Source of the DNA: Dokdonia sp. 4H-3-7-5
Lineage (GTDB): Bacteria; Bacteroidota; Bacteroidia; Flavobacteriales; Flavobacteriaceae
Reading direction: 5' to 3'
Assembly: GCF_000212355.1 (NCBI RefSeq)
Contig: NC_015496.1
Location: forward strand, 2,306,501-2,370,500
DNA: 64,000 nt
In this document: positions 3,401 through 63,167 of the stretch, one piece after another
Layout of the letters: each line of letters opens with the position of its first letter
How positions within the stretch are numbered: position 1 is the first letter of the stretch
Made by a program: the position numbers and the translations under genes
The notes under the pieces: model-generated
Told to the model about the DNA's origin: nothing
Databases searched by the model: none
What the model saw: the letters and a program-made list of their open reading frames with translations, nothing else

Positions 3401-4585
3401 ATGATGGCTCCTTTAAAAAAGGTATTAAAGCGAATGATTGGTTATATTAACTTGTCTTTGTTTTATGTTTTAGTATTACCTAAAATAAAAAAATCCGATA
3501 TCGTTTTCATATTCCCTTATTACCATATGGGAGGCGCAGAGCAGGTACACCTTGATATTGTAAAATCTATAGCAGATAAGAAAGTGACAGTTATCTTTAC
3601 ACATCTTTCTGCAACAGATCATTTTTTATCACGCTTTCGCGAAAGCGCAACTGTAATAGAACTCAACAGTATTATAAATAAAAAAAGTAAGCACGTGAGA
3701 ACGGCACTTTTTAATACCATTGCTACAGCTATTAATAAGAGTACTACGGTTACACACGTTTTTGGCTGTAATACAAACTACTTTTACGATATTTTACCTT
3801 TAATAGATAAGCGTAAACGCCGCTTAGATTTAATACACGCTATCGCTCCAGATGATAGTAGAATAGATATACTAGCTACATCTGCCCAGTACATTGATAC
3901 ACGTGTTGTTATTAATGAAAAAGCAAAGAATGACATTTATCGCATTTATAGCGATAATGAAGTTTTGCAGTCATTAGATCATATAACAGTAATTGCAAAC
4001 GGCGTAATATTGCCTGCGTCTACTGATGTAACTTTAAAAAATTGGAGTAAAGACATTATTAATGTTGGATTTATAGGAAGATGGTCTGAAGAGAAGCGAC
4101 CAGAACTATATTTAAAAATTGCTCATAAAGCCCAAAAGAAGGGACTTGACGCTCAGTTTTATATCGCTGGATCCGGAATGAAGGCACACAAAGAGGTGAT
4201 AAACAAAGCGAGTGTTTTATCCTTAGATGAAATCTCAAACAAGCAGGATCTTCAAGATTTTTATAAGAAACTACACTTTGTTATTATTTGTTCTAAAACG
4301 GAAGGATTCCCTATGGTTTTAATGGAATCCATGCCTTATGGAGTAGTCCCGCTGTGTACAAATGTGGGAGGGATATCTGAGCACATTCATCATGGAGAAA
4401 TAGGAGTGCTTGTAGAAAACAGTGCCGATGAGGATGTGATTATAGAGAGTTTTCTGGATAACATTAATGCATTAGTTAATGATATTCCAAGGGTTGAGTT
4501 ACTATCAAAAAAGGCACAAGAGTATGCTGTAGAGCACTTTGGTATTACTAAGTTTCAGGAATCTTATAAAAATCTATTTGTTTAA
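3401..4585 (+). CDS. Glycosyltransferase family 4
   Basis: A 394-residue GT-B retaining glycosyltransferase. MGGAEQ at 43-48 is the N-terminal acceptor-side glycine motif. FIGRWSEEKRPE at 224-235 opens the C-terminal nucleotide-sugar domain, and SKTEGFPMVLMES at 298-310 is the classical EX7E region. A hydrophobic run at about 15-28 could be membrane-associated. Residues 78-82 (RFRES) are encoded by a copy of the 16-base palindrome. Two adjacent ATGs (3401 and 3404) are possible starts. The stop overlaps the next ATG by one base. Confidence 0.9.
   Translation: MMAPLKKVLKRMIGYINLSLFYVLVLPKIKKSDIVFIFPYYHMGGAEQVHLDIVKSIADKKVTVIFTHLSATDHFLSRFRESATVIELNSIINKKSKHVRTALFNTIATAINKSTTVTHVFGCNTNYFYDILPLIDKRKRRLDLIHAIAPDDSRIDILATSAQYIDTRVVINEKAKNDIYRIYSDNEVLQSLDHITVIANGVILPASTDVTLKNWSKDIINVGFIGRWSEEKRPELYLKIAHKAQKKGLDAQFYIAGSGMKAHKEVINKASVLSLDEISNKQDLQDFYKKLHFVIICSKTEGFPMVLMESMPYGVVPLCTNVGGISEHIHHGEIGVLVENSADEDVIIESFLDNINALVNDIPRVELLSKKAQEYAVEHFGITKFQESYKNLFV
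3632..3647. repeat. Dispersed palindrome CGCTTTCGCGAAAGCG, exact copy
   Basis: Perfect 16-base self-complementary sequence inside the GT4 gene, read in frame as RFRES (residues 78-82). Confidence 0.95.
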
Positions 4586-5739
4586 TGAAAATCTTAATGA
4601 TCGCCATACCTAATCATCACTTCTTCCAATGGGTCAACCAGATGGAAGGTTCGGGGCATGAGGTATTCTGGTTTGATGTAACAGACGGTGGGCCTAGGTC
4701 AGAAAAGATATCTTGGGTTACACAGATAAAAGGATGGAAACTACGATGGGATTACCCGTTGAGGTCTTTTGTTAAACAGAGAAGTGCAATACTATATCGT
4801 TTCATTCAAAAGATTAATGTAAGAAATGTAGAGGACGCATTTGCAAAAGTGTTTAAAGAAATCAATCCAGACATTGTGCATTGCTTTGAGATGAAACTGG
4901 CAGGTTTACCTATACTTTCACAGCTGCAACTATCAGACAAACCATTACTATACTCCTCTTGGGGAAGTGATATGTTTGCATATAAAGAGTTAGGAGTGAC
5001 AAGGGAAGAAACTACAACATTCCTTAGTCGTGTAGATGGTTTAATAACAGATTGTCATCGTGATTATAAGATTGCAAGAGAGCATAGCTTTAAAGGGGAA
5101 TTCTTAGGTGTCTTTCCAGGTAATGGAGGTATTGATATAAATGCTACCATCATCAAAGAGACTCAAGAAAGAAATTACATTCTTATTAAAGGATATGAAG
5201 ATGGCACAGGAAAGGCAGGAGTCATTCTAGAGGCACTTACGCTTGTATCCCCAGAATTACTCAAAGGAAATAAGATTGTTATTTACAGTGCAGATGACGT
5301 CCTTGTAGATCAGGTGGCACATTCAGAAATATTAGTGGGACTTGACATAACGATACACTCTCGATATGCCTTTATAGCGAATACCGAGCTTCTTAAATTA
5401 ATGGGGCAGAGTGTACTTCATATAGCAAATAGTGTCTCAGATGGGATGCCTAACGCTTTACTAGAAGCTATGGGGATGGGAGCTTTCCCTATACAGTCTA
5501 ATCCTGGCAATGTAACGCAGGAAGTGATTACAAGCGGCGAGAATGGCTTTCTTATACAGGATCCTTACAACTCAAAAGTGATTGCACGATTAATTGAAGA
5601 AGCGCTTAAAGATGAAAGCCTGAGAAGTCGCGCACAACAATTCAATACTGCATTTATTCGTAAAAATTATAATAGAAGTATCTTACGGTCTAAAATAGAG
5701 GCATTGTATCACCAAGCTTATAACAATCATAATTCTTAA
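4585..5739 (+). CDS. Glycosyltransferase family 4
   Basis: A 384-residue GT-B protein. The N-terminus MKILMIAIPNHHF replaces the usual GGAE-type acceptor motif. SSWGSDM at 124-130 is the conserved middle motif. SDGMPNALLEAMGMG at 285-299 provides the EX7E region that binds the donor nucleotide sugar, followed by NGFLIQD at 320-326. It is likely cytoplasmic, transferring one sugar to the repeat unit. It is coupled to both neighbours by single-base TAATG overlaps, so it is almost certainly co-translated with them. Confidence 0.88.
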   Translation: MKILMIAIPNHHFFQWVNQMEGSGHEVFWFDVTDGGPRSEKISWVTQIKGWKLRWDYPLRSFVKQRSAILYRFIQKINVRNVEDAFAKVFKEINPDIVHCFEMKLAGLPILSQLQLSDKPLLYSSWGSDMFAYKELGVTREETTTFLSRVDGLITDCHRDYKIAREHSFKGEFLGVFPGNGGIDINATIIKETQERNYILIKGYEDGTGKAGVILEALTLVSPELLKGNKIVIYSADDVLVDQVAHSEILVGLDITIHSRYAFIANTELLKLMGQSVLHIANSVSDGMPNALLEAMGMGAFPIQSNPGNVTQEVITSGENGFLIQDPYNSKVIARLIEEALKDESLRSRAQQFNTAFIRKNYNRSILRSKIEALYHQAYNNHNS

Positions 5740-6617
5740 TGGATATTTCCTTTTTAATTGTCACGAGAAATAGACCGGCAAATCTGAGAGTTACACTTAA
5801 CACGCTGGAAAAAATCATTGATCTAGAAAAGCACGAAGTCTGTGTTTTTATAGATGGGTGTGATAAAACAACACCATTAATAGAGGAGTATAACTGGGTG
5901 CAGTGGAGTAAAGTGAATAAAAGTATAAGCGCCTCACCGGCTAGAAATGCACTTTACAAAACGGCAAAAGGAAAGATTTTTATTGGTCTAGATGATGATG
6001 CTCACCCTATAAGTGTAAATTTTATAGAAGAAGTAACATTTCGCTTTCGCGAAAGCGTAAACCTTGGTATTATAGCTTTTCAGGAAGTTCGCGGTTTATT
6101 TGCTACAGATCAAGAGGCACTTAAATGTTCAAAATCTGGGTTGTCATATATAACAAATGATTTTGTAGGCTGCGGATTTGCTATTAAAAAAGAAGCTTAT
6201 GATACCACCAATGGTTTTCCTTTATGGATGGATATTTATGGAGAAGAATCTGCTGTGGCTATAGAGGTTATGGATGCAGGGTACGATATTGTATATGATT
6301 ATAATCTTAAAGTAAACCATAGGGTAGATGTTGAGAAACGTAAAACTATGGGGCGTAATTACTTTAGGTTTGAGCACCAACTTAAAAATACGATTCGCTT
6401 TTATATGGTTTATTACCCTAAACCATTATTTAAGATTGCAAAGGCGCTCTTACATAACTTTAGAAAGTATGCATTGAGTGATAAGACTTATTTTAGATAT
6501 TACTGGCGATCTATAGGAAGACTAATTTTAGATACAACAGTAATCTTAAAATATAGAAAACCAGTAAATGCAATCACAATTAAGAATAGGAATAATTTGA
6601 AAAGTTTGAGTTATTAA
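5739..6617 (+). CDS. Glycosyltransferase family 2
   Basis: A 292-residue GT2 enzyme: FLIVTRNRP at 5-13, VFIDGC at 36-41, ASPARNAL at 65-72 (the conserved SxARN helix) and LDDDAHP at 84-90 (metal-binding DXD). An acidic GEES near residue 170 can serve as the catalytic-base region. RFRES at 102-106 comes from an embedded copy of the palindrome. It ends the tightly coupled run of GT genes that starts at 3401; a 71-base gap follows. Donor and linkage are unknown. Confidence 0.88.
   Translation: MDISFLIVTRNRPANLRVTLNTLEKIIDLEKHEVCVFIDGCDKTTPLIEEYNWVQWSKVNKSISASPARNALYKTAKGKIFIGLDDDAHPISVNFIEEVTFRFRESVNLGIIAFQEVRGLFATDQEALKCSKSGLSYITNDFVGCGFAIKKEAYDTTNGFPLWMDIYGEESAVAIEVMDAGYDIVYDYNLKVNHRVDVEKRKTMGRNYFRFEHQLKNTIRFYMVYYPKPLFKIAKALLHNFRKYALSDKTYFRYYWRSIGRLILDTTVILKYRKPVNAITIKNRNNLKSLSY
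6042..6057. repeat. Dispersed palindrome CGCTTTCGCGAAAGCG, exact copy
   Basis: Exact 16-base palindrome within the GT2 gene, read as RFRES (residues 102-106). Confidence 0.95.
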
Positions 6618-8572: not shown

Positions 8573-9736
8573 ATGAAAAGCATCGGTTTTATACCCCTGC
8601 GTAAAGGCTCAAAATGCATTCCAGGTAAAAACAAAAAGAAACTTCTCGGTCGCCCACTATTCTGCTGGGTCTTAGGTGAAGCGATTGCTTCACGTCTTGA
8701 TACTATCTATATTTATACGGACGATGAGGATATCATCGCTTTTGTAGAAAAAGAATATCACTGGACAGATAAAGTAAAAGCCGTACAACGTAGCGACGAG
8801 AGTGCAACAGATACTGCTTCTACAGAAATGGGGATGCAGGAGTTTGTAGCAGGTTTAAAAGAAGATTTTGATGTGCTTTGTTTACTCCAAGCAACATCAC
8901 CTTTTACCACTTCTCAAGATATAAATGCGTGCCTAGATGCAGTAGCGTCAGGTACAGATAATGATTCGGCTCTTACGGTGGTAAATACTCACCGATTCAC
9001 TTGGAATGCAGATGGAACTCCTCAAAATTATGATGTCTTCAGCCGACCGCGTAGGCAAGATTTTGATGGGTTACTTATTGAGAATGGAGCTTGCTATGTG
9101 ACCACGCGTGACGCTTTTCGCGAAAGCGGAAACAGAATTAGCGGTAAAATAGCTACGGTACACATGCCAGAGGATAGTCTTACAGAGATAGACACGCTGA
9201 CCGACTGGAAAATCGTGGAGGAATTGCTAGCCGCTCGTTTAAAAACGAAAAAGCAAAGTAACCGAATTACACATCTTATACTTGATGTGGATGGCGTGTT
9301 TACAGATGGCTGTATCTATTATGGTGCAGAGGGCGAACTGATGAAAAAGTTTGATATGCGCGATGGAATGGGACTTGAGATTTTGAGACAATATAATGTT
9401 GAGGTAATGGTGATGACGTCTGAAGATTCTCAAATAGTTGCCAGCCGAATGAAGAAATTAAAAATTAAAGACGTGTTTTCAGGAGTGAAAGACAAGTATA
9501 GTCTACTTTCTAGAATTGCTACAGATCGTGGGATTGATTTTTCTGAAATAGCATATATAGGTGATGATGTGAATGATCTTGCAAACATTTGTGCAGCAGG
9601 ATGGTCACTTACACCTGCAAATGCGACGATGCCTATCAAGAACCACGCAGATATCATATTACAAAACAATAGCGCAGAAGGAGCGATACGCGAGGCCTGT
9701 GACTTTATTATAAAATATAACAACCGATATGAGTAA
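8573..9736 (+). CDS. neuA: Bifunctional CMP-sialic (nonulosonic) acid synthetase / HAD phosphatase
   Basis: The N-terminal half (about 1-225) is an acylneuraminate cytidylyltransferase: FIPLRKGSKCIPGKN at 6-20 is the CTP-binding loop, LLQATSPF at 104-111 the sugar-binding strand, and NGACYVTTRDAF follows at 171-182. The C-terminal half (about 233-387) is a KdsC-type HAD phosphatase with nucleophile motif LDVDGVFTDG at 237-246 (Asp238, Asp240), Thr282, Lys307 and IGDDVND at 329-335. It would activate a nonulosonic acid with CTP and may dephosphorylate its 9-phosphate precursor. It is followed by neuB with an 8-base overlap. Sialic acid, Kdn and legionaminic acid cannot be told apart from sequence. 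Confidence 0.88.
   Translation: MKSIGFIPLRKGSKCIPGKNKKKLLGRPLFCWVLGEAIASRLDTIYIYTDDEDIIAFVEKEYHWTDKVKAVQRSDESATDTASTEMGMQEFVAGLKEDFDVLCLLQATSPFTTSQDINACLDAVASGTDNDSALTVVNTHRFTWNADGTPQNYDVFSRPRRQDFDGLLIENGACYVTTRDAFRESGNRISGKIATVHMPEDSLTEIDTLTDWKIVEELLAARLKTKKQSNRITHLILDVDGVFTDGCIYYGAEGELMKKFDMRDGMGLEILRQYNVEVMVMTSEDSQIVASRMKKLKIKDVFSGVKDKYSLLSRIATDRGIDFSEIAYIGDDVNDLANICAAGWSLTPANATMPIKNHADIILQNNSAEGAIREACDFIIKYNNRYE
9112..9128. repeat. Dispersed palindrome, variant with one extra T
   Basis: The left arm has four T (cgcttttcgcgaaagcg). It lies in the neuA-like domain and reads AFRES, residues 181-185. Confidence 0.8.
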
Positions 9737-10604: not shown

Positions 10605-10662
10605 AAGATAATAGGGGAAAGCGCTAGTCTTTTATGCGATTGCTTACTAAAAATTGATGCAG

Positions 10663-10996: not shown

Positions 10997-11044
10997 AATG
11001 GAGATTGAAAAGAACTAATAGTTGATTTTGATTACTATTTAAAA

Positions 11045-11194: not shown

Positions 11195-12601
11195 ATGATT
11201 AAAAAAAATAAAGTTTTCATTCTTTTTCCAGACGGCGTAGGTCTACGCAACTTTGCTTTTACTAAGTTCAAAGAAGTAGGAGAGGCCCAAGGATTTGACA
11301 TCACTTACTGGAATAACACCATATTTTCGTTAGAAAAGGAATTGGGTTATAAAGAAGTGAAGATTGAGAACACAAAGATTCACCCCAAAACACCTACACT
11401 TAGTCACGCAAGAAAGAGGGTAGAACTAGCGCTTTCGCGAAAGCGTGAAAAAGATAATGTCTATCCTACCTATCGTTTTCCATTGCAGTGGAATAGTATA
11501 AAGAAAGCCTTAAAAAGTGCTTTTGTAAAGTATCACGAAACGTTTAGTGCCACACCAAAGGGATGGCAACGAATAATGAACCAAATGCAAGCTGCCGAAC
11601 GATCTACTGTTCGCTACCAGGAGCTTAAAGCACAACTAAAAGAACACCGTCCAGACATTGTTTTTTGTACCACACAGCGAGCTACACAGGCCATTGCACC
11701 TTTGCTCGCGGCGCAGGATCTTGGAATCAAAACGGCGTGCTGGATATATAGTTGGGACAACCTGCCTAAGGGAATGACCACGGTAGAGACAGATTATTAC
11801 TTTGTATGGTCTGACCTTATGAAAGGGCAGCTCTTACAGTACTACCCAAAAACCAGAGAAGAGCAGATATTTGTTACAGGAACACCACAATTTGAACCAC
11901 ATTATGATAGTAGTATTTTGCTTTCCCGAGAGCAATTTTGTCTAGAGCACAATCTTAGTGAAGAGACACGATACATTTGCTTCTCTGGGGACGATCAAAC
12001 CACGTCACCACTAGATCAATATTATCTAGAAGACACGGCAATTGCTGTGCGAAAATTGAGAGAAGAAGGTGAAGATGTAGCCATTATATATAGAAAAGTA
12101 CCTATTGACTTTTCTGGTAGATATGATGAGGTATTGGCTACTTATAAGGATGTCATTATACCTATAAACCCTTTGTGGAAACCAATGGGCTCACAATGGA
12201 ATCAAGTGATGCCTACCAAAGAAGATTTTGCTTTATTAGTAAATACCTGTCACCACTGCGAGCTGGTTGTAAATATATGCTCGAGTATGGTGTTTGATTT
12301 TGTGGCTCACGATAGGCCTACAATCTATCCAAACTATGAGCAGCCACAACTTAAAAAGGGAATACGTGATATAGGACAGAACTATAAATATGTACATTTT
12401 CGATCTATGCCAGATTATGATACAAGTGTCACTTGGGCAATGAATAAAGAAGATATTTATGATGGAATTAAAGGCTTACTTAATGGTAGTCTTAACCCAG
12501 TGCCTATTACAAAAAGATGGTTTGGGATTGTAAATAAACCAGAACAACCTGAGAAAGCTAGTGAGCGTATTTGGGAGGGGATACATCAAATCTTAGAGTA
12601 A
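11195..12601 (+). CDS. Polysaccharide-cluster protein of unknown function, GT-B-like
   Basis: I cannot assign a family with confidence. The 468-residue soluble protein opens with a Rossmann-like strand (VFILFPDGVGLRNFAF) and has DIVFCTTQRATQAI near 155-170, VTGTPQFEPH near 225, ICFSGDDQTTSPLD near 265 and a C-terminal VVNICSSMVFDFVAHDRPTI region. This plan recalls GT-B enzymes such as CDP-glycerol glycerophosphotransferases, so a glycosyl or polyol-phosphate transferase is the best guess. It follows a repeat-rich gap and abuts the MBOAT gene with no spacer. LSRKR at 80-84 is palindrome-encoded. Confidence 0.6.
   Translation: MIKKNKVFILFPDGVGLRNFAFTKFKEVGEAQGFDITYWNNTIFSLEKELGYKEVKIENTKIHPKTPTLSHARKRVELALSRKREKDNVYPTYRFPLQWNSIKKALKSAFVKYHETFSATPKGWQRIMNQMQAAERSTVRYQELKAQLKEHRPDIVFCTTQRATQAIAPLLAAQDLGIKTACWIYSWDNLPKGMTTVETDYYFVWSDLMKGQLLQYYPKTREEQIFVTGTPQFEPHYDSSILLSREQFCLEHNLSEETRYICFSGDDQTTSPLDQYYLEDTAIAVRKLREEGEDVAIIYRKVPIDFSGRYDEVLATYKDVIIPINPLWKPMGSQWNQVMPTKEDFALLVNTCHHCELVVNICSSMVFDFVAHDRPTIYPNYEQPQLKKGIRDIGQNYKYVHFRSMPDYDTSVTWAMNKEDIYDGIKGLLNGSLNPVPITKRWFGIVNKPEQPEKASERIWEGIHQILE
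11430..11445. repeat. Dispersed palindrome CGCTTTCGCGAAAGCG, exact copy
   Basis: Exact copy inside the GT-B-like gene, here in a different frame, read as LSRKR. Confidence 0.95.
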
Positions 12602-18533: not shown

Positions 18534-19521
18534 ACTAAGCCTTATCATTTGCACTTACATGCGACCAGATCCCTTAACAAGATTGTTGGAGTCCGTCATG
18601 GCGCAAACTCAAGTACCTGAAGAGATTTTAATTATTGATGGTTCTACAGATGATGATACGGGATCTCGCTTTCGCGAAAGCAGAAATAACATTATAAGCT
18701 ATCATAAAGTGCCACAAGAATGTCGCGGGCTTACGAAGCAACGTAATTATGGAATATCAAGAATCAATGACGAAATAGATATAGTTGCATTTCTTGATGA
18801 CGACACGATTTTAAATCCAGATTATTTTGAGAACTTGGTTTCTACTTATGCTCAATATCCAAAAGCGGTAGGTGTAGGTGGTTATATTACAAACGAAGTT
18901 TCTTGGGAGAAGACAGAACAGGGAAAAGTTGAGGATTTAAACCATTATTATTACGATGGTTATAGGAGAAAGGAGAGCAGTCGCTACAAACTAAGAAGAA
19001 AATTAGGGCTGGCACAAACTACACAACCAGCTATTTATCCTGAATTTGGTCATGGTAGATCTATAAGTTTTTTGCCACCTTCTGGTAAGATTTATAAAGT
19101 AGAACAGTTAATGGGAGGTGTTTCTAGTTTTCCTCTTGCTGTTTTAAAAGAACATAAGTTTTCTGAATATTTTGAAGGTTATGGTCTCTACGAGGATGCA
19201 GATTTTACATTGCGATTATCTAATATAGGAGATTTGTATGTGAATACAGCAGCACAATTAGAACACCATCACGATGCAGCAGGAAGACCTAATAAATACA
19301 CTTACGGTAAGATGGTCGTGCGCAATGGCTGGTATGTATGGCGAGTAAAACATCCCAAACCATCATTTAGGAACAAACTCAAATGGTATCAAATCACCGT
19401 ATTGCTTACTGGTATTAGATTTCTGAATATCTTTACTACGAGTGAACGTAAAGAAGCATTCACAGAAGCAATGGGAAGAACCGTAGGTATATTTAGTTTG
19501 CCTTTTAATAAACCTAATTAA
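18520..19521 (+). CDS. Glycosyltransferase family 2
   Basis: A 333-residue GT2 enzyme: LIICTYMRP at 8-16, IDGSTDDDT at 39-47, GLTKQRNYGI at 70-79 and FLDDD at 91-95 (metal site). An EDADFTLRL motif near 226 supplies the catalytic-base region. RFRES at 50-54 is encoded by the dispersed palindrome. The gene starts inside the previous one (14-base overlap) and its stop overlaps the following ATG by one base. It has no membrane segments; donor unknown. Confidence 0.9.
   Translation: MQQCKLSLIICTYMRPDPLTRLLESVMAQTQVPEEILIIDGSTDDDTGSRFRESRNNIISYHKVPQECRGLTKQRNYGISRINDEIDIVAFLDDDTILNPDYFENLVSTYAQYPKAVGVGGYITNEVSWEKTEQGKVEDLNHYYYDGYRRKESSRYKLRRKLGLAQTTQPAIYPEFGHGRSISFLPPSGKIYKVEQLMGGVSSFPLAVLKEHKFSEYFEGYGLYEDADFTLRLSNIGDLYVNTAAQLEHHHDAAGRPNKYTYGKMVVRNGWYVWRVKHPKPSFRNKLKWYQITVLLTGIRFLNIFTTSERKEAFTEAMGRTVGIFSLPFNKPN
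18667..18682. repeat. Dispersed palindrome, one end mismatch (14-base core exact)
   Basis: cgctttcgcgaaagca in the GT2 gene, read as RFRES. Confidence 0.92.
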
Positions 19522-20069: not shown

Positions 20070-21178
20070 AATTACTCATCATATCTGATGCACCTATTTT
20101 AAGTAATTCAGGGGAAAAAGAAGCGTACGCACCTTATGTGAAGGAAATGGATATATGGATGCAACATGCTAGTGATGTTTCTTTTGTATGTCCGACTAAA
20201 TATGATCGTAATCTTTTAACTCAAGCTTTTCAAATACAAGATTTTGAAGTTCAATCATTACGAAGACTGGAGTTTCATTCAGTATTATCAGCATTAATCT
20301 CGTTTCTAACCATTCCATATCAAGCCATAGTGTTATGGAATACCATGCGCAAAGCAGATCATATTCATCTAAGATGTCCAGGTAATCTTGCTTTGCTAGC
20401 CAGTATAATACAGGTTACGCTTCCGCGAAAGCGAAAAACGGCTAAGTATGCTGGGAATTGGGATCCTGCATCTAAACAACCGCTAGCTTATAAAATGCAA
20501 AAGTGGATACTTTCTAATACCGCATTGACTAGGAATATGAAAGTGCTGGTTTATGGCGAATGTAAGGGCCAAACTAAAAATATAAAACCCTTTTTTACCG
20601 CAAGTTATTACAATAATGAAAAGGAGGCCGTCATAGATAGAGATTTTAAGCAACCTCTAAGAGCCATGTATGTAGGCACTATGGGACTAAATAAAAGACC
20701 TTTAGAAACAGTACAGCTTGTTAATTTTTTTCGTAGCTCTGGATTAGATATTACCCTTGAGATGTACGGCGATGGTCCAATAGTAGAAGACATTAAGTGG
20801 TATCGAAAAGAAAATGGAATTTTAGATAAAATCGTCATACGAGGAAACCAACCTGGGCATGTAGTAAAAGAAGCCTACAAAAATGCAGATCTTCTCATAT
20901 TACTCTCCAAAAGTGAAGGATGGCCTAAGGTTGTCGCAGAGGCAATGTTTTGGGGTGTAGTGCCTATAGTCTCGAGTGTATCATGTGTGCCTTGGATGAT
21001 TGGAAACGATAAGAGAGGGATACTTATACATGATCCAGAACATATAGATGCTGAATATTTAGGAAAACAACTAACTAACAAAGAAGCTCTTTTAGAAATG
21101 AGTAAAGAGGGCGCAGAGTGGTCTAGACAATACACAATGGATACCTTTGCTCAAGAAATCAAAAAGCTATTGCAATGA
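20066..21178 (+). CDS. Glycosyltransferase family 4
   Basis: A 370-residue GT-B enzyme with YVGTMGLNKRP at 202-212, YGDGP at 234-238 and SKSEGWPKVVAEAMFWG at 281-297 (EX7E). The N-terminal acceptor domain is divergent and has a hydrophobic helix at about 72-90. LPRKRK at 119-124 comes from a variant of the dispersed palindrome. Four-base overlaps (ATGA) link it to the acyltransferase before it and the GT4 after it. Confidence 0.88.
   Translation: MKLLIISDAPILSNSGEKEAYAPYVKEMDIWMQHASDVSFVCPTKYDRNLLTQAFQIQDFEVQSLRRLEFHSVLSALISFLTIPYQAIVLWNTMRKADHIHLRCPGNLALLASIIQVTLPRKRKTAKYAGNWDPASKQPLAYKMQKWILSNTALTRNMKVLVYGECKGQTKNIKPFFTASYYNNEKEAVIDRDFKQPLRAMYVGTMGLNKRPLETVQLVNFFRSSGLDITLEMYGDGPIVEDIKWYRKENGILDKIVIRGNQPGHVVKEAYKNADLLILLSKSEGWPKVVAEAMFWGVVPIVSSVSCVPWMIGNDKRGILIHDPEHIDAEYLGKQLTNKEALLEMSKEGAEWSRQYTMDTFAQEIKKLLQ
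20418..20433. repeat. Dispersed palindrome, variant with one internal change
   Basis: cgcttccgcgaaagcg differs from consensus by one T to C; read as LPRKR in the GT4 gene. Confidence 0.85.
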
Positions 21179-22248
21179 AAGTGCTCCAACTCATAGATAC
21201 ATTGGATGCTGGTGGGGCGGAACGGATGGCTGTAAATATAGCTAATGCCGTTAATGAAGAGGGAATAACCTCTTATCTGTGTGCAACCCGACGAGGAGGT
21301 ACCTTAGAAAGAGAATTATCTTCTCAAGTGAGTTTCTTAATGCTTGGAAAGAAGGGTAAGCTAGATCTAGTCGCCTTTCGCCGATTTTTTAAATGGTTAA
21401 AAAAGCAACAGATTACCATTATCCACGCGCATTCTACATCGCTAATGCTAGCAGTACTAGCCAAAATCAATAAGCGTAGCATAAAGATTGTTTGGCATGA
21501 TCACTATGGGATGAGTGATGCGTTGGAAAAACGTGATAGCAAACTCCTCAAAATTCTTGCTAGATATATTGATGTGACAATAGCGGTTAATGAGAAGCTT
21601 ACAACATGGTCTAGGGAAGTATTATGTGTCAAGCAAACTTATTTTTTAGAGAACTTTGCATCACTTTCTGGAGATACACTTAAAGTTACTACCCTAAAAG
21701 GAGTCGAAGGTAAACGTGTAATTTGCTTAGCAAACTTACGACCACAAAAAAATCATATAGAGCTCATTAAAGCTTTTTCAAAAACACAAGACAATTTTCC
21801 AGAGTGGACGTTACATCTCGTAGGAAAGTCTTTTGAAGATGATTATTATGAGCAAATAACCACTGCTATTAGAGAGCATGAACATACAAGTAAGGTATAT
21901 CTCTATGGTAGTTGTAATGATATAGCGCACATTTTAGAACAAAGCACCGTAGGTGTACTTGCATCTATTTCAGAAGGCTTACCTGTTTCGTTGTTAGAGT
22001 ATGGAAACAGTAGTTTACCTGTTATAGTTACAAATGTTGGACAATGTGCTGCGGTTGTAGGGAATAACGGTATAGTGATTAATAATGTAAGAGAAGAACT
22101 AAGCAAGGAGCTAGTAAAATTGTTTCATTGTGATCAAAAAGAAAGAGATCAGATTGGATTACGCTTTCGCGAAAGCGTACTAAAAAATTATAGTAAGAAG
22201 GCTTTTATGGACAAGGTGTTGCCTATCTATAAAGGATTGATATCTTAG
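21175..22248 (+). CDS. Glycosyltransferase family 4
   Basis: A 357-residue GT-B enzyme. DAGGAERM at 11-18 is the acceptor loop and IHAHS at 83-87 the conserved middle motif. NLRPQKNH near 190 starts the donor domain, and SEGLPVSLLEYGNS near 265 is the EX7E segment. The C-terminal helix carries RFRES at 330-334 from an exact palindrome. It follows the previous GT4 with a 4-base overlap; the membrane protein downstream starts 5 bases after its stop. Confidence 0.9.
   Translation: MKVLQLIDTLDAGGAERMAVNIANAVNEEGITSYLCATRRGGTLERELSSQVSFLMLGKKGKLDLVAFRRFFKWLKKQQITIIHAHSTSLMLAVLAKINKRSIKIVWHDHYGMSDALEKRDSKLLKILARYIDVTIAVNEKLTTWSREVLCVKQTYFLENFASLSGDTLKVTTLKGVEGKRVICLANLRPQKNHIELIKAFSKTQDNFPEWTLHLVGKSFEDDYYEQITTAIREHEHTSKVYLYGSCNDIAHILEQSTVGVLASISEGLPVSLLEYGNSSLPVIVTNVGQCAAVVGNNGIVINNVREELSKELVKLFHCDQKERDQIGLRFRESVLKNYSKKAFMDKVLPIYKGLIS
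22162..22177. repeat. Dispersed palindrome CGCTTTCGCGAAAGCG, exact copy
   Basis: Exact copy near the 3' end of the GT4 gene, read as RFRES. Confidence 0.95.
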
Positions 22249-27807: not shown

Positions 27808-27823
27808 CGCTTTCGCGAAAGCG
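27808..27823. repeat. Dispersed palindrome CGCTTTCGCGAAAGCG, exact copy
   Basis: Intergenic copy, about 160 bases upstream of the small secreted protein gene. Confidence 0.95.
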
Positions 27824-29678: not shown

Positions 29679-29694
29679 CGCTTTCGCGAAAGCA
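29679..29694. repeat. Dispersed palindrome, one end mismatch (14-base core exact)
   Basis: Intergenic copy between prmA and clpS, sitting where a -33 box would be relative to the candidate clpS -7 box. Confidence 0.92.
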
Positions 29695-33694: not shown

Positions 33695-33710
33695 CGCTTT
33701 CGCGAAAGCG
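33695..33710. repeat. Dispersed palindrome CGCTTTCGCGAAAGCG, exact copy
   Basis: Intergenic copy between the permease gene and tpiA. The wider ttcgctttcgcgaaagcgaa is a perfect 20-base palindrome. Confidence 0.95.
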
Positions 33711-36660: not shown

Positions 36661-36676
36661 CGTTTTCGCGAAAGCG
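36661..36676. repeat. Dispersed palindrome, variant with one change
   Basis: cgttttcgcgaaagcg between the DUF1599 and DoxX-fusion genes; one C to T change in the left arm. Confidence 0.85.
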
Positions 36677-41400: not shown

Positions 41401-44400
41401 TAACAGACCGATGCCTAATGAAAACCCAACTCCTTTTACGCTTTGTGACGATAATAGCGACGGACTACAGATTTTTGATTTAAGTACACAGGTAGTAAAT
41501 ATTTTAGGAAGTTTAGATCCTGCAACTCATAGTGTGGAATGGTTTTCTTCTCTCGCTTCCGCGGAAGCTGGAACTCCTGCCATCGCAACTCCTAGCGCTT
41601 ACACCAGCAATACGGCAACTGTTTTTGCAGTGGTGACAGATACGGCGCAACCAACGACCACAGCTACTTTTTGTAGTAACATAGCGACCCTTTCTCTTGT
41701 TGTAAATCCGCTTCCTACTCCGGTGCAAGCTGCCGAATATGAGCTTTGTGATGATCTAGAGAGCGGTAGTGATACCGATGAGTTTGCAAGTTTTGATCTT
41801 CGTAGCCGTGATGATGAGATTACTGGAGGTAATGATGACTGGGCAGTGAGCTATCACCTTACCCAAGGTGATGCCGATGCAGGTGCGCCAGCACTTCCGG
41901 ATGTATATCAAAATACCGTGATGGCCAACCAAACTATTTTTGCTAGAGTAGAGAATATCGTAACTAGCTGTTTTGAAACCACCACCCTTACGTTAGTGGT
42001 AAACCCATTACCATCACCTACCACTATTGCAGCGGTAGAAGAATGTGATACCATGGCAAACGATGGAGATGTAGATAATGATGGAGACGCAGTATTTGAT
42101 CTTACAGGTCAAGTAACTGCAGATATTATCAATGGAGAGACGTTTATGTCACTCACTTTTCATGAGACACTCGCTTCCGCGGAATTGGGTAGTCCATCGA
42201 TAGCAACTCCTGCAGCTTATGAGACTGTATCTAGAACAATATACGTACGAGCAACCGATACGGACCCAGCAACAGCAACCCAGTGTTACCGTGTTATCGA
42301 ACTAGTACTTACCGTACAACCAGCACCTGTACTTCCTACAGTAATCCCAGATTTAACCTCTTGCGATGATAATGAAGATGGACAAGCGCTTTTTGATCTT
42401 ACTCAAAACGATGCAATTGTTCTAGGAACACAAACCACTGCTGATGTTACCCTTACCTATCATGAAACCCTTGCTAGCGCAGAAGCGGTAGTAGGAAGTG
42501 CAAGTGATATGCCAGTTGCCGATCCGCTGAACTATTTAGCAAGTGCGCCAACCACGCCAATCTGGGTGCGTCTAGAAAATACAACTACAGGATGTACGGT
42601 CGTTGGCACTTTCAATCTAAACATAGCGATGATTCCAGTAATCACACCTCCTGGAGTTTTTGAGCAGTGCGATAGCGCAGGAGCACTGGTAGGCAACGAT
42701 ACTGATGGGATTACAAGTTTTGATTTAACGAGCCTTGATACTTTAATTACTGGAGGAGACACCACTTTAAGTGTTAGCTATTATGAGTCGCAAGCCGACT
42801 TAGATGCTGGGGCAACCAATGCTATCATGACCCCAACAGCCTATATAAATACAGGCATGAGTCCGCAGACCATTTTCATTTTAGTTACAAGTGATCAGGC
42901 AGGAATGTGTGGTGCTCAAACTACGGTAGACCTTCAGGTGAATCCACTGCCAGTCATTGGAGAGCCATTACCAGCGGCAGTAGCTTGTGATGAAGATAAT
43001 GATGGCTTTGGAGCATTTGACCTGCAGCAATATAATGACGACTTACTAGCAACAGTAACGAATGTAGCCTTACGTTTTTATGAGACCTTAGATAATGCAT
43101 CGGCAGATACAGGAGCAGGTCAGATAGATATTACGGTTCCTTATAATAACATTTCAGGAATGACTTCGCTGTATGTCGTTGCACAAGACACGGATGCTAC
43201 CACAGCCACAAGTTGTACGAAGATCTATGAGTTTGAACTTATTGTATTCCCTATTCCAGAGCTTCCAGCAACACTAGCAACCCTTGCAGCATGTGATGAT
43301 AACAATGATTTAATGGAGGTTATTGACCTTACTCAAAATGAGGCTGCGATTATAGGAACGCAAGATCCAGCAACCCTTGTCATTACCTACCATAATACAC
43401 AAGCAGATGCCGATTTAGGAATCAATCCAATTGTAAACCCTACCGCTTATACAGCAACACAGATAACACCACTAGAAACTATCTGGGTAAGATTACAAGT
43501 AAGTGACGGCTCTCCAAATATATGTGCTGCCATTGGTTCTTTTGAGATATCAGTTGAGACACCACCTACGGCAAATCCGAATGGTGATGAGCTAGACCTG
43601 ATGATTTGTGATGATGATACAGATACTTTTACCGTATTTGACTTAAGCGTAAACCAAGCCAGTCTCACTGGTGGTGATCCGCTGCTTACGGTGACGTATT
43701 ATGAGAGTCTTGCAGCTTTGAATGCAGGAACTCCTATTGCAGATCCTTCGGCGTATACAAATGTTTTAAATCCTCAGACCATCCAGGCAGTAGTATCAAG
43801 CCCAGCAGGATGTAGTGATGGAACGACCTTTAATATTGAAGTGTTACCACTGCCAACGCCAAATACCAACCCAGATGCGCTTGAAGTGTGTGATACGACT
43901 ACAGATATTGACACAGATGGTGACGGAGTGATTGATGCAGGTTCAGGTTCGGCAACAGATGGTTTTGAAGTCTTTGACTTAACACCTGCTATCGCGCAGA
44001 TTGCTGGAGCTGAACCTGTGAATGTAACGGTGTATACAGAGCTCGCTTTCGCGGAAGCGAACCCAGAAGACACCACGCTAGCCATTGCAGATGTGACTGC
44101 GTTTATCAATACCGTGACTGGCAACCAAACATTATACGCACGAGTGGAACGTGATGTGCCAGGCGATAGTGACTTGGATAGCGACGGAAATCTATGTTTT
44201 GTAGTTGTTCCTTTTGAAGTAGTGGTAAACCCGCTACCGATCTTGGCAGAAGCTGGACCTGTAGATTATACCTTCTGTGAAGAATTTGATGGTGATGACT
44301 CGATGGGAAGTGTCGATTTAACAACCCTCGCAGATTTGGCTGGATTACTTGCTGCGCCGCAGGTAACCAGTGATTTTATGATCACTTACCATGAACTAGA

Positions 44401-45699: not shown

Positions 45700-45701
45700 G
45701 T

Positions 45702-45717
45702 TGCTTTCGCGAAAGCG
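45702..45717. repeat. Dispersed palindrome, one end mismatch (14-base core exact)
   Basis: Intergenic copy directly after the terminator and about 90 bases before ftsE. Confidence 0.92.
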
Positions 45718-48844: not shown

Positions 48845-49959
48845 AAGGAATTTATCAGTGCATTCCAGTCATTACTAATCCGTTCTTGTGACAAGTGTGC
48901 TACACTGTCTTTGGCATTTGATTTACAATGTGCTAAAAATTGTCCATCAAGAACTAGCGTACGCATAGCTACAGATAGTGCCTCTATCTCATAATTAGGA
49001 ACTAATAATCCATTATGACCGTGTTGTACTATTTCACTAGGCCCAGACTCGCAGTCTACGCTTATCACTGGAGTTCCTAGTGACAATGACTCTACAAGCA
49101 CCATTGGGAAACCTTCATAATGACTGGTAAGGAGTGTACACAAAGCTTTTTCTACAATAGATGATGGATTTTCTTGATAACCTATAAAGTAGACCTTGTC
49201 GGTCACTTTAAGTTTTTTGGCAAGATTGTATAATTTTTCCTTATCAATGCCTTCACCCATAATTACTAAGGGAAGTTTTAAGTTCGCTTTCGCGAAAGCT
49301 GAAATCATCAAACTAAAATTCTTAACATCATCCACCAGTCGGCCATAGCCTAATACATAATCATAAGGAAGCGCTAGAGTATCATTTATTTCTGAAAATC
49401 GCGGTATTGCATTATAGATATTGCTAATGTGTTTAAAACCATAGCGCTCTTTTATTTTCTTACATATACGTTTTGACACTCCAACAAAGTAGGCATCTTT
49501 ATAGATATATTTCGTTATTGCAGCTGGTTTAGGGAAGTACATTTCTAAGTGACCACTTCTGACCATGCATAAAACATTTAAATTACGATACACATATTGT
49601 GTATACCAAATTTCTTTAAATAAGGAAGGTCGCGATCTATTATCTATAATTAAATGAAAGCCTTGAGATATTAGATATGATCTAAGTTGCCTTAAGTGAT
49701 TCCATTGATCTAGCACATTATCATCATTTGATTTATAACTACCTAGATTAAAAAGTGTTCCAGCATATGGGACTTTAATGTCATCTCTTAACGTCACGAT
49801 ATGTACCGAGTGCCCTAGTCTGGATAACATAGTAGATAAAATCCCCAGCGATCGCTCTGCTCCACCACCTGCCAATGAGATGGTAACTAGCGCAATTTTT
49901 TTATGAGTATCTTTAGGCAACAGAAGAAATTTTGAATACCAAATATAGTCAATGCGCAT
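48841..49959 (-). CDS. Glycosyltransferase family 4
   Basis: A GT-B enzyme of up to 372 residues. KKIALVTISLAGGGAERS is the acceptor loop, GYGRLVDDVKNFSLMISAF starts the donor domain, GEGIDKEKL follows, and SHYEGFPMVLVESLSLG is the EX7E region. AFAKA (in ISAFAKANL) is palindrome-encoded. The first ATG (ending at 49959) overlaps the divergent gene's ATG; an in-frame TTG near 49920 would place the start right before KDTHKK and avoid the overlap, so the start is uncertain. It is followed by fdtA in the same unit. Confidence 0.88.
   Translation of the reverse strand: MRIDYIWYSKFLLLPKDTHKKIALVTISLAGGGAERSLGILSTMLSRLGHSVHIVTLRDDIKVPYAGTLFNLGSYKSNDDNVLDQWNHLRQLRSYLISQGFHLIIDNRSRPSLFKEIWYTQYVYRNLNVLCMVRSGHLEMYFPKPAAITKYIYKDAYFVGVSKRICKKIKERYGFKHISNIYNAIPRFSEINDTLALPYDYVLGYGRLVDDVKNFSLMISAFAKANLKLPLVIMGEGIDKEKLYNLAKKLKVTDKVYFIGYQENPSSIVEKALCTLLTSHYEGFPMVLVESLSLGTPVISVDCESGPSEIVQHGHNGLLVPNYEIEALSVAMRTLVLDGQFLAHCKSNAKDSVAHLSQERISNDWNALINSL
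49285..49300. repeat. Dispersed palindrome, one end mismatch (14-base core exact)
   Basis: In the GT4 gene on the - strand, read as AFAKA at a site where GT4 proteins often have a similar alanine-rich helix. Confidence 0.92.
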
Positions 49960-51089: not shown

Positions 51090-51638
51090 TTAAGAAAAGC
51101 TAGAAAACGTTGTTCCCGCAGCTACATTTACTGTAACCTTACTTCCTGACGCTATCACGGCATTATCTCCTATAGTTACACCTTTCCAGATACTCACATT
51201 ATTTCCTATAAAAACATTCTCACCTATAGTCACAGCTGCGCTAGACCCTGTATCTGATCTTCGGTATTCGGGATTAAGACTATGAAAATTACAATTATAA
51301 ATACTACAATTTAAACCTATGGTTGTTCTGTCTCCTATAGTTATAGAAGACTCATTTGCAATCGCACAAAAGTTATTATTAATAGCAACGTCTTTCCCAA
51401 AGATAATCTCACTGCCCACTTTCCTTGCTTCTATATACGCATAGGTATTATAAAATAATGGCGAATTGATAACACCTATATGTACGCTTTCGCGAAAGCA
51501 TACTTTTCCTTTACCATTAATTTGCGCAGGTTGATGAAGTACCGCATGGCCATCTATACTTTTATGTGATGAAAGTATTTTATACTTCCATATTCTAAAG
51601 GATTGTAATATGTTACTAAGTCTACTCACTTGCTGCAA
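51090..51638 (-). CDS. Hexapeptide-repeat (left-handed beta-helix) acyltransferase
   Basis: A 182-residue acyltransferase with hexapeptide turns TIGDRTTIGLNC, TIGENVFIGNN, TIGDNAVIASG and GVTIGD, plus a likely histidine in FHSLNPEYRRSD. It resembles WbbJ/NeuD-style O- or N-acetyltransferases. As the last gene of the aminotransferase-flippase unit it is a candidate for acylating the 3-amino sugar (FdtC-like) or for O-acetylation. It overlaps the flippase gene by 17 bases. FRES in CFRESVH is palindrome-encoded. Confidence 0.82.
   Translation of the reverse strand: MQQVSRLSNILQSFRIWKYKILSSHKSIDGHAVLHQPAQINGKGKVCFRESVHIGVINSPLFYNTYAYIEARKVGSEIIFGKDVAINNNFCAIANESSITIGDRTTIGLNCSIYNCNFHSLNPEYRRSDTGSSAAVTIGENVFIGNNVSIWKGVTIGDNAVIASGSKVTVNVAAGTTFSSFS
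51485..51500. repeat. Dispersed palindrome, one end mismatch (14-base core exact)
   Basis: In the hexapeptide acyltransferase gene (- strand), read as CFRES. Confidence 0.92.
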
Positions 51639-52911: not shown

Positions 52912-54011
52912 CTAAAGTTGTTTAGCGCTGTTATAATTTCCTCAACATTTTCCTCTGATAATGCTGGTGATAGAGGAATACTAAGTACCTCATTATGCAA
53001 TTGCTGACAAACGGGAAATGATTGCATATTGTACTCGCTAAGTGCCTCTTGTTTATGAGGAGGAACTGGATAATGAATATTAGTCCCTATCCCTTGATTT
53101 TGTAAGTGTGTCTGTAATTGATCTCGATAAACACTTCGTATCACAAACAAGTGCCACACATGATTTTCCTCTTTATCTAATTGAGGTAGTAAAATATGTT
53201 TATTATCAATCTTACTGAGATATTGGATCGCAATCTCACGACGTTTTTGATTTTGTATGTCTAATTCTCTTAATTTTATTCTCAAGAAGGCCGCTTGTAA
53301 CTCGTCAAGTCTAGAATTAACTCCTGCATATTCGGCTACATAGCGTTCTTTAAAGCCGTAATTTCTATATTTTTTTACCACCTGAGCCAGCGATTCATTA
53401 TCTGTGGTAATTGCTCCGGCATCTCCTAAGGCTCCTAGATTTTTAGTAGGGTAAAAACTGTGTGCACTCGCATCTGCTAGTGATCCGCTGCGATTTCCTT
53501 TAACATCCTTCGCTCCGTGTGATTGTGCGCAATCTGTAATTACAAATAGGTTATACGCTTTCGCGAAAGCGTTAATCCTTTCCATATCCGTAAGTTTCCC
53601 ATACAAGTGTGTAGGTAACACTACTTTCGTTTTAAGAGTAATTTTATGTTCTAGATCTTCAAAATCGAAATTATATGTAAGTAACGAAGCTTCTACTAAT
53701 ACTGGAATCAAACCAGCTTGCTTAATAGCGATAATCGTAGCGATATACGTATTACTTGCAACTAAAACCTCGTCTCCTTCCTGAAGCTGTTCTAAGATTT
53801 TATAGCCTTCAAAAATGAGTCGTAAAGCATCGAGACCATTTGCTGTACCTACACAATGTGTTGTTCCACAATACTGAGCATATTCTGCTTCAAAGAGTTG
53901 CACCTCTTCTCCTAGTACAAACCAACCTTCCGCTAAAAAGGAATCGAACTTGTTTTTAAACTCCTGTTCAAAGGGAGCATTTATTTTCTTAAGATCTAAA
54001 AATGGAATCAT
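52905..54011 (-). CDS. fdtB: DegT/DnrJ/EryC1-family sugar aminotransferase (FdtB/QdtB-like)
   Basis: PLP-dependent enzyme of 368 residues that aminates a nucleotide keto-sugar. MIPFLDLKKIN is the family start. ANGLDAL near 57-63 binds PLP phosphate, ITDCAQSHGA at 158-167 has Asp160 for the pyridine nitrogen, and SFYPTKNLGALGDAGA at 185-200 holds the Schiff-base Lys190. NSRLDELQAA near 231 and YP-type C-terminal residues complete it. With FdtA at 48452 it would give a dTDP-3-amino-3,6-dideoxyhexose; the symbol rests on that context. It overlaps both neighbours. Confidence 0.88.
   Translation of the reverse strand: MIPFLDLKKINAPFEQEFKNKFDSFLAEGWFVLGEEVQLFEAEYAQYCGTTHCVGTANGLDALRLIFEGYKILEQLQEGDEVLVASNTYIATIIAIKQAGLIPVLVEASLLTYNFDFEDLEHKITLKTKVVLPTHLYGKLTDMERINAFAKAYNLFVITDCAQSHGAKDVKGNRSGSLADASAHSFYPTKNLGALGDAGAITTDNESLAQVVKKYRNYGFKERYVAEYAGVNSRLDELQAAFLRIKLRELDIQNQKRREIAIQYLSKIDNKHILLPQLDKEENHVWHLFVIRSVYRDQLQTHLQNQGIGTNIHYPVPPHKQEALSEYNMQSFPVCQQLHNEVLSIPLSPALSEENVEEIITALNNFRC
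53556..53571. repeat. Dispersed palindrome CGCTTTCGCGAAAGCG, exact copy
   Basis: Exact copy in the aminotransferase gene, read on the - strand as AFAKA (residues 148-152). Confidence 0.95.
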
Positions 54012-57864: not shown

Positions 57865-57945
57865 AATTCTTTAATTTCTGCAATGGCGGTATTATCTCCC
57901 TACCTTCACTTAGTTTTTAGATGCCCACGTGTTGGGCTTTTAAAA

Positions 57946-57959
57946 TTTTCGCGAAAGCG
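57946..57959. repeat. Dispersed palindrome, truncated variant
   Basis: ttttcgcgaaagcg keeps the right arm and centre, but the left arm's outer bases are lost. It lies in the ndk upstream region. Confidence 0.75.
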
Positions 57960-62401: not shown

Positions 62402-62444
62402 TTTCTAAGTTTTACACAAAGATAATGGCTACATAGATGAAAGA

Positions 62445-63167
62445 CTACGCTTGCTCTTTAAAAACAATAGAAAGAAGGATGTACAGAATGATGATGATAG
62501 GTATCCCTAAAAACTGGAAGAACACAAGCAGTAACACACTTGCAAGTAAAAAGAGGTAACGCACTTTGTTTTCCCCAAAAGACCAGTTTTTAAACTTTAA
62601 AGCAAATAATGGAAGCTCTGCATTGAGCATAAAACAACTTAATGCGGTAAGTACTATAAGGGAGTATGGATTTTCTAATAACGCTTTCGCGAAAGCGTAC
62701 TCTTCAAACATCAATATAAGAGGTAAGCTTAGTATAAACAAGGTATTTGCAGGAGTTGGAAGTCCTATAAACGAGTTAGTCTGACGATCATCTACATTGA
62801 ACTTTGCAAGTCTATATGCCGAAGCCATCGTTATTGCAAAACCTATATAACCCAAGTGAAAGTGCTGCTCTTCTAGTGCCGCACCCCAAGGAATACCGCT
62901 AGCATCTTCTAGCAGTTGATACATAACCACTCCTGGCACAACACCGCTAGTAACCATATCTGCAAGAGAATCTAATTGTAATCCTACCTCACTTGAAGCA
63001 TTAAGAATTCGTGCAAAAAAGCCGTCAAAAAAATCAAAGAAAATCCCAAGAGCTACAAATATCGCAGCAAGCTCTAGACGATCATTTACAGCAAAAACTA
63101 CCGCAACACAACCGCTTAACAGATTACCCATTGTAATTGCATTAGGAACGTAACTCTTTATAGACAT
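62445..63167 (-). CDS. pssA: CDP-diacylglycerol-serine O-phosphatidyltransferase
   Basis: Inner-membrane phospholipid enzyme making phosphatidylserine, the precursor of phosphatidylethanolamine. The 240 residues contain the CDP-alcohol phosphotransferase signature with Asp45, Asp48, Gly49, Arg53, Gly62, Asp66 and Asp70, spanning DFFDGFFAR at 45-53 to LDSLAD at 65-70. Six or so membrane helices surround it. AFAKA in the EYAFAKALL segment is palindrome-encoded. It is divergent from the porV-like gene and upstream of pepD. Confidence 0.93.
   Translation of the reverse strand: MSIKSYVPNAITMGNLLSGCVAVVFAVNDRLELAAIFVALGIFFDFFDGFFARILNASSEVGLQLDSLADMVTSGVVPGVVMYQLLEDASGIPWGAALEEQHFHLGYIGFAITMASAYRLAKFNVDDRQTNSFIGLPTPANTLFILSLPLILMFEEYAFAKALLENPYSLIVLTALSCFMLNAELPLFALKFKNWSFGENKVRYLFLLASVLLLVFFQFLGIPIIIILYILLSIVFKEQA
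62682..62697. repeat. Dispersed palindrome CGCTTTCGCGAAAGCG, exact copy
   Basis: Exact copy in pssA (- strand), read as AFAKA in a loop between membrane helices. Confidence 0.95.

Follow-up and report, generated by a model that had tools for sequence, protein, structure and literature searches.

Introduction

Strong uptake-sequence bias has been reported for two bacterial families only, the Pasteurellaceae and the Neisseriaceae (PMC7811141). The uptake signal sequence (USS) of Haemophilus influenzae occurs in 1471 perfect and 764 one-mismatch copies, which Karlin found to be evenly spaced; 65% of sites are in open reading frames (ORFs), noncoding sites are above expectation, orientation is unbiased and the sites originate by point mutation (PMC1939737); informative flanks surround its core (PMC7811141). 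Here we analyzed a palindrome, CGCTTTCGCGAAAGCG (the 16-mer), that recurs through a stretch of 64,000 nucleotides (the window; G000:C1:2306501-2370500) of Dokdonia sp. 4H-3-7-5 (G000), a flavobacterium whose genome is one contig of 3,389,993 bases. Like USS and the DNA uptake sequence (DUS) of Neisseria, it is present in hundreds of evenly spaced copies with a noncoding excess, relatively few one-mismatch copies for each perfect one, no preferred orientation, a core with informative flanks and an occurrence common to related genera. By analogy, we tentatively propose, at somewhat less than an even chance, that the palindrome and its flanks of roughly 16-18 bp form a self-DNA recognition signal of the USS/DUS type.

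Three other kinds of iterated site invite comparison. HIP1 of cyanobacteria is also a GC-rich palindrome iterated through genes and gaps and most variable in its outer bases; the motif described here differs in being twice as long and less dense, in its strand-asymmetric flanks, and in having no shared methyltransferase among the three families searched. Chi sites lack a palindrome, are short and are recognised on a single strand, commonly in the orientation of replication, and Escherichia coli has about one per 4-5 kb. The palindrome resembles them in density, in G/T-rich strand geometry and as a mark of self DNA, and is unlike them in being palindromic, much longer and potentially readable from both sides, with directional copies that are unoriented. 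Noc/ParB- and MatP-type sites are scattered palindromes of similar length (about 13-16 bp), but they number in the tens and show a regional bias, whereas here there are hundreds of sites and no second ParB-family gene in five motif-rich genomes.

A first-pass annotation of the window had noticed the palindrome and shortlisted a methyltransferase or nucleoid-protein site, an uptake signal and a segregation mark. From this shortlist the uptake-like reading survives best and a nucleoid protein keeps some plausibility, while a methyltransferase site is weakened by searches with three Pfam families. A segregation mark is disfavoured because each of 31 sampled stretches held 1-8 sites and the ParB helix-turn-helix (HTH) region was alike in motif-poor genomes.

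Abundance and Spacing of the Palindrome

The 16-mer was present in 505 exact copies in the 3.39-Mb genome, with no copy of the reversed control, compared to expectations of 0.0003 and 0.39 copies per genome from third- and fifth-order Markov models trained on a detail sample of 684 kb (31 stretches of 20 kb plus the window, ~20% of the genome). This confirmed that the observation is real and genome-wide and that the sites are not confined to the window. The window itself contained 21 matches with at most three mismatches, against a mean of 0.06 in 100 shuffles, bearing out the earlier judgement that chance was an unlikely source. All nine exact 16-mers listed by the first-pass annotation were found in place, and each of its five 14-base cores (18667, 29679, 45702, 49285, 51485) differed from the 16-mer solely in an outermost base. 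Its near copies at 20418 and 36661 were also present, as were two at 9113 and 57944 that fall into a distinct, one-armed class (see below), and a one-mismatch copy at 44044 had been overlooked.

In the 684-kb sample CTTTCGCGAAAG was the most frequent 12-base palindrome, with 153 copies compared to 7 for the runner-up (masked N runs excluded). There were 106 perfect copies of the 16-mer and 51, 23, 39 and 44 copies with one to four mismatches, a one-off to perfect ratio of 51/106; for an earlier part of 204 kb, sequences simulated with a second-order Markov model contained 0, 0, 0, 0.4 and 4.4 copies with nought to four mismatches. The outermost base was the site of change in 14 of the 20 one-off copies in this 204-kb part, so that the motif has the shape of HIP1, being palindromic, iterated and variable mostly at its outer bases. 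An over-represented GC-rich palindrome whose outermost pair changes most, as in HIP1 (PMC4390886), might be kept by a methyltransferase together with mismatch repair. We consider this improbable, in part because the site is 14-16 bp long with non-palindromic flanks and the extensions of HIP1 are palindromic and reach 10-12 bp (PMC4390886).

Sites were distributed along the whole sample, with 1-8 in each of the 31 stretches (mean 4.29, dispersion index 0.62; test made without locating the replication origin or terminus). Six of 115 gaps, window included, were shorter than 1 kb, whereas 2,000 simulations gave 25.7 such gaps on average and never fewer than 13. The coefficient of variation (CV) of the gaps between the first 100 exact copies was 0.79, with 0.6% of 5,000 simulations that low, and 109 gaps from three genomes gave a CV of 0.66, three of them being below 1 kb where 19.5 were expected. 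Gaps this short were otherwise rare, but three pairs of sites were just 126-138 bp apart (G000 ~416111, 518268 and 1098445).

Noncoding DNA, 10.1% of the 684 kb, held 58 of 147 sites (binomial p ~1e-20), a fraction that is approximate because ORFs were called mechanically, and some of the copies assigned to coding sequence near ORF starts may be upstream of the true start. The remaining 89 were in ORFs. The use of all three reading frames, noticed earlier in the window, extended to 150 sites located in ORFs with a minimum length of 150 amino acids (Dokdonia and Nonlabens pooled), with 82, 34 and 34 sites in frames 2, 1 and 0, respectively.

An even, chromosome-wide distribution would also suit the binding site of a nucleoid protein found in these genera and spaced to fold the chromosome. 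Long symmetric sites are typical of dimeric proteins that bind double-stranded DNA, at least one outer arm of the palindrome is intact at nearly every site (see below), and Karlin proposed a role in replication, repair or compaction for the evenly spaced USS (PMC1939737). This reading is nevertheless rather unlikely. None of the 31 sampled stretches stood out (origin and terminus not located), the 89 of 147 copies in ORFs represent a cost needless for a structural site, and a presumed mobile block in Ulvibacter has the same spacing.

Flanking Tracts and a One-Armed Class of Site

The whole signal extended over ~50 bp. Dokdonia and Nonlabens together contributed 81 intergenic sites, read in both orientations and without those selected by pattern. 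At every position between -3 and -18, 5' of the palindrome on either strand, C made up 0-9% of bases and G 12-28%. T peaked at -2/-3, -6, -9 and -12 in this flank, and the C-poverty had no obvious helical phasing. The same bias was found at 150 coding sites in all three frames, where the 5' flank contained 6-10% C compared to 15-17% farther out and the 3' flank 9-12% G compared to 17-19%. Both Dokdonia genomes and Nonlabens displayed it, and it was weaker in a third motif-rich genus (G190), with C mostly at 8-22% compared to 21-30% farther out (18-23 sites).

Pairing between symmetric flank positions beyond the palindrome was near that expected from composition except at position -1 (0.45 vs 0.33), and therefore a longer inverted repeat was ruled out. 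A hairpin kept by compensatory arm changes gave mixed results, as changes of the outer pair showed no compensatory excess in G000 or Nonlabens and showed one in Dokdonia sinensis SH27 (G206; p 0.008) and in G190 (p 0.005), each genome being taken separately. G190 was rich in the 14-mer with outer bases often different (GC ~45% in the stretches read), and 7 of its 16 doubly changed copies remained palindromic (T..A, A..T, G..C), resembling a dialect shift.

That copies are inserted by a mobile repeat or transcription terminator, to which the coincidence of some coding copies with length-variable loops might lend itself, appears very improbable indeed. The flanks share composition and not sequence, no extended inverted repeat was found beyond -1, and the copy at window position 23966 differs from its orthologue by substitution. 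The T-rich left and A-rich right flanks would also be the reverse of those of a bidirectional terminator.

The centre of the palindrome, TTTCGCGAAA, lies between two outer GCG arms. Grouped by the number of mismatches in each arm, 201 TTTCGCGAAA sites in G000 comprised 106 (0,0), 45 (0,1), 14 (0,2), 27 (0,3), 5 (1,1) and 4 (1,3), at least one outer arm being intact in 192. The excess of (0,3) over (0,2), together with the lack of any site in which each arm has at least two mismatches, points to a second, one-armed class of site. In G000 this class had 41 members (arm mismatch of 2 or 3), with AAT, TAT or CAT as the other arm in 22. The flank by the intact arm contained little G (0-12% across 16 positions, the first of them two bases past the arm), and the opposite flank was only mildly C-poor (2-32%). 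Eight such sites were found in the stretches examined of D. sinensis, five in those of G190 and none in those of Nonlabens. Orientation, which can be defined for one-armed sites and not for the palindrome, displayed no bias, with 21 of 41 matching the sign of local GC skew (taken from single 20-kb stretches, a rough proxy) and 10 of the 23 in ORFs matching the gene strand. We infer that the directional unit is the 13-mer TTTCGCGAAAGCG followed by a G-poor 3' tract and that the full site is this unit overlapped with its own mirror image.

The C-poor tract 5' of the palindrome on both strands suggests a single-strand process. It is not explained by an uptake signal and fits a Chi-like RecA-loading mark, Chi and RecA both favouring G/T-rich strands. 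The alternative is then a bidirectional, Chi-like mark for recombination or self-DNA protection, at which a repair helicase-nuclease or its partner would read the site from either side and pass the 3'-ended strand just 5' of it to RecA, the C-poor, G/T-rich tract on each strand serving for RecA loading. The presence of the tract in intergenic and coding copies, the position of the G-poor flank of one-armed sites next to the intact arm, the even spacing near 4.5 kb and the absence of the motif from two phage genomes are all consistent with this. The unoriented one-armed sites (21 of 41 with the skew sign) are not, and Chi-type enzymes are to our knowledge near-universal, whereas the motif is abundant in three of 236 genera sampled in the family. 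We therefore regard a Chi-like mark as unlikely, although worth weighing.

Lineages Carrying the Motif and Retention in Orthologues

Of the 299 genomes sampled in the family, 61 contained the 14-mer (pattern counts for all genomes other than G000), and five of these were rich: G000 (757), D. sinensis (857), Nonlabens xylanidelens DSM 16809 (G242; 664), a second Nonlabens (G010; 578) and G190 (408). The next counts were 19, 17, 16 and 9, and the motif was thus abundant in three of the 236 genera, Dokdonia, Nonlabens and that of G190. The count in related flavobacteria that had been suggested as a check therefore showed an abundance that extends to further Dokdonia, where all 18 genomes were rich (G000 included; 369-905 14-mers, sizes 2.6-5.5 Mb, completeness from 76%), and to both other genera. 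Across the order 20 of 296 genomes had a match, with at most six copies apart from G000, and across the phylum the 16-mer was found in 11 of 395, with at most two copies apart from G000. A flank-extended pattern matched at least 113 stretches; among the matches listed all were from Dokdonia, Nonlabens or flavobacterium BBFL7 except one Tenacibaculum and one Ulvibacter. This pattern would miss genera like that of G190 because it was modelled on Dokdonia and Nonlabens flanks.

Between the two Dokdonia species, and between Dokdonia and Nonlabens, part of the coding 14-mers were retained in orthologues, more often than control windows. From G000 to D. sinensis 5 of 8 were intact compared to 1.3% of 1,573 control windows (in reverse, 5 of 11 compared to 1.3% of 2,257), from G000 to Nonlabens G242 2 of 4 compared to 1.1% of 783 (in reverse, 2 of 5 compared to 1.4% of 1,135) and from D. 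sinensis to Nonlabens 2 of 8 compared to 0.2% of 1,755; reverse comparisons share sites and so are not independent. Towards three motif-poor genomes none of six coding sites (1+2+3) was kept. To the first-pass annotation coding sites looked as if they had arisen by substitution and not insertion. The copy at 23966, whose gap-free alignment reads AFAKA vs AFVKA, is consistent with this; other copies lie in length-variable loops or signal peptides. Loops and signal-peptide-like positions were among the locations of coding copies in 15 alignments, with loop-length changes in one ORF that we take to be MutL and one that we take to be DapB in D. sinensis.

Candidate Reader Proteins

ParB_N had one match in each of the five rich genomes, with no second ParB-family match (other DNA-binding families were not searched). 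The HTH region was near-identical in rich and poor genomes, so a ParB/Noc-type reader was rejected. Both results also count against a nucleoid protein within the family searched. Three methyltransferase families were searched by profile (two in runs over 28 genomes each, one over 8), and none of PF01555, PF00145 and PF02384 passed its cut-off in every one of the five rich genomes (the search covered no methyltransferases beyond these three families), which is a further point against a HIP1-type site. PF01555 scored below threshold in G000 and had no match in G206 or G242, PF00145 was absent in G000, G242 and G190, and PF02384 was absent in G190.

Copies in Metal-Efflux Loci and Absence from Two Phages

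Among 35 copies inspected in motif-poor genomes (chosen loci in 12 of the 56 with a match, classed by ORF length and N-terminus), 27 were in metal-efflux-type ORFs (RND, OEP, CusB, copper P-ATPase and Fur type) and 8 elsewhere. Pfam analysis of seven proteins confirmed five gene types. These locations, and the single block that holds all 16 copies in one Ulvibacter genome (see below), led us to reject parS-like sites near the origin as an account of the scarce copies in genera poor in the motif. A 933-bp spacing recurred in several genomes, and C-poverty also flanked such copies (9% of flank bases at 39 sites, 10% at 33 sites).

In Ulvibacter G076 all 16 copies were in a 78-kb block (G076:C3:32331-110016), ~5 kb apart on average, with copper/zinc-type efflux and mobile-element-type genes. 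Its genes were mostly 87-100% identical in a second genome of the genus (G287), and backbone genes at 60.7-79.8 kb were 84-100% identical in G051. The backbone genes had no match in the Dokdonia and Nonlabens stretches compared, which represent part of those genomes, and there was no clear candidate for a reader gene among 20 proteins of the block scanned by Pfam. We infer that copies in other genera are DNA that passed through motif-rich hosts. The motif may then serve as a donor label, copies elsewhere marking DNA from Dokdonia- or Nonlabens-like hosts, for example in copper-resistance islands. The block also contained N6 methylases, a helicase of Strawberry-notch type (1419 aa), an ATPase of Zot/A32 type accompanied by numerous small membrane proteins and a four-gene set with a Pfam MksE match, the order of which is presumably that of Wadjet/Mks systems.

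The Nonlabens phages P12024S and P12024L, which are related to each other, had no 14-mer and no TCGCGA, compared to ~7 14-mers expected in each at the density of G242 (664 in ~3.3 Mb). Their records (JQ823122, JQ823123) each annotate a DNA methyltransferase.

A Putative Uptake Signal

We rank an uptake signal first because spacing, noncoding excess, lack of orientation, one-off ratio, retention of part of the sites in orthologues and the organization into core and flanks match those of uptake sequences. The high copy number in all 18 Dokdonia genomes, the absence of the motif from the two Nonlabens phages and the presence of ComEC in all five rich genomes are in line with this reading. In the mechanism we envisage, a candidate DNA-binding component of the competence machinery would favour fragments bearing the site, and incoming related DNA with the site would replace alleles without it. 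Repeated over time, such a bias would drive mutations toward the site at positions where the protein can accept them. Because a single site would be sufficient for a fragment of the size taken up, close pairs would not be favoured and spacing would even out. The directional unit would be TTTCGCGAAAGCG with its G-poor 3' flank, and the palindrome, as two overlapped units, would be readable from both ends. Within the family, Riemerella columbina, placed in the Flavobacteriaceae, prefers its own DNA in transformation, and its abundant k-mers (at most 10 bp) are A-rich and differ from the palindrome (PMC7965970). No description of the motif in Dokdonia, Nonlabens or the Bacteroidota was found in openly licensed literature, where the one paper with a full-text match to strings of the motif concerns ThiH, and a description may be in print elsewhere.

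Several observations weigh against an uptake signal. USS and DUS are not palindromic (PMC1939737), and the density here is ~1 per 4.5 kb compared to ~1 per 1 kb for USS (PMC7811141), i.e., ~4-5 times lower. The present motif also differs from both in its length of 14-16 bp, its one-armed class and its phylum; for its C-poor 5' flanks on both strands, a strand-specific exclusion of C or G over ~15 positions, no counterpart was found in the USS and DUS descriptions. The literature searched yielded no competence or uptake data for Dokdonia or Nonlabens. No reader protein was found by way of ParB, the three methyltransferase families, ComEC or the scan of the Ulvibacter block; ComEC does not discriminate because it was present in 3/3 motif-poor as well as 5/5 rich genomes. 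G190 keeps few sites (0/5 from G000 and 0/5 back, 1/11 from D. sinensis, 1/3 from Nonlabens and 1/3 back), and several copies in the 15 alignments lie in indel regions rather than at simple substitutions. In the presumed mobile Ulvibacter block the motif is spaced much as in a host chromosome, while islands in Neisseria frequently have few DUS (PMC7371117). Some low-GC IMG/VR contigs carry two or three copies with typical flanks; whether prophage, other phage or host DNA, they may weigh against the phage argument. Finally, a tree built from ParA and ParB of 20 genomes grouped Nonlabens with genera poor in the motif, Ulvibacter among them (support 97), and put G190 together with Dokdonia (support 72); it is limited by its two genes, by the length of the Nonlabens branch, by a Nonlabens row that lacks ParA and by genera that were not picked as nearest relatives. 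The rich lineages therefore do not form one clade on this two-gene tree, which suggests that the reading system was transferred between them or lost repeatedly.

The uptake and Chi-like readings could also be combined. The palindrome would then be a new kind of self-identity signal in double-stranded DNA, built of two overlapping directional units with C-poor 5' tracts on both strands and acting as a two-way recombination entry or loading point that couples uptake with RecA loading, acquired separately by two flavobacterial lineages; this is a speculative proposal that we think unlikely. If an uptake signal is correct, it would be a further independent case, in the Bacteroidota, palindromic and flank-coded, that would test evolution by drive alone, and it would give genetic access to marine flavobacteria. 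Should the motif instead be a recombination or nucleoid mark, it would represent a long, clean, chromosome-wide recognition signal.

Sites and Other Features of the Window

The sites detected in the window are given in Table 1.

Table 1. Copies of the palindrome and related sites in the window (window coordinates)
Site	Position	Strand	Location	Orthologues, flanks and remarks
Exact 16-mer	3632..3647		Glycosyltransferase ORF 3401-4585, frame 0, RFRES	Kept with 1 change in D. sinensis orthologue
Exact 16-mer	6042..6057		ORF 5739-6617, frame 0	14-mer intact in D. sinensis
One-armed site	9113..9128	+		TTTCGCGAAAGCG intact, other arm shifted
Exact 16-mer	11430..11445		ORF 11195-12601, frame 1, LSRKR	Identical in D. 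sinensis, Nonlabens G242 and G010
14-mer core	18667..18682		Glycosyltransferase ORF 18520-19521, frame 0	Kept in D. sinensis and Nonlabens; absent in G190
One-mismatch copy (core T to C)	20418..20433			Same variant in Nonlabens G242; not kept in D. sinensis
Exact 16-mer	22162..22177		ORF 21175-22248, frame 0	Intact in D. sinensis; absent in Nonlabens
Exact 16-mer	23966..23981		ORF 23562-24584, frame 2, AFAKA	3 substitutions in 14-mer in D. sinensis, gap-free
Exact 16-mer	27808..27823		Intergenic	Left flank 8 G + 1 C, right flank 0 G
14-mer core	29679..29694		Intergenic
Exact 16-mer	33695..33710		Intergenic
One-mismatch copy	36661..36676		Intergenic	Left flank 7 G + 1 C, right flank 0 G
One-mismatch copy	44044..44059		2381-aa ORF 38495-45640	Overlooked in first-pass annotation
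14-mer core	45702..45717		Near start of ORF 45653-46489, frame 1
14-mer core	49285..49300		ORF 48841-49959, minus strand, frame 2
14-mer core	51485..51500		ORF 51090-51638, minus strand, frame 0
Exact 16-mer	53556..53571		DegT/DnrJ/EryC1-type aminotransferase ORF 52905-54011, minus strand, frame 2
One-armed site	57944..57959	+		AAT-TTTCGCGAAA-GCG
Exact 16-mer	62682..62697		CDP-alcohol phosphatidyltransferase ORF 62445-63167, minus strand, frame 2	Absent in G190 orthologue

The 2381-aa ORF contained solely near copies of the palindrome (41554 and 44044). A dispersed intergenic repeat with a core like CATTTCGACAGAGCGAAGCGACGAGAAATCTCATCAGAG was located at 10640-11200, and parts of this type of repeat recurred in the window, at many places in D. 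sinensis and in Nonlabens. The sole Rfam match in the window at gathering score was a Flavo-1 RNA (RF01705; 45 bits) at 37367-37448 on the minus strand.

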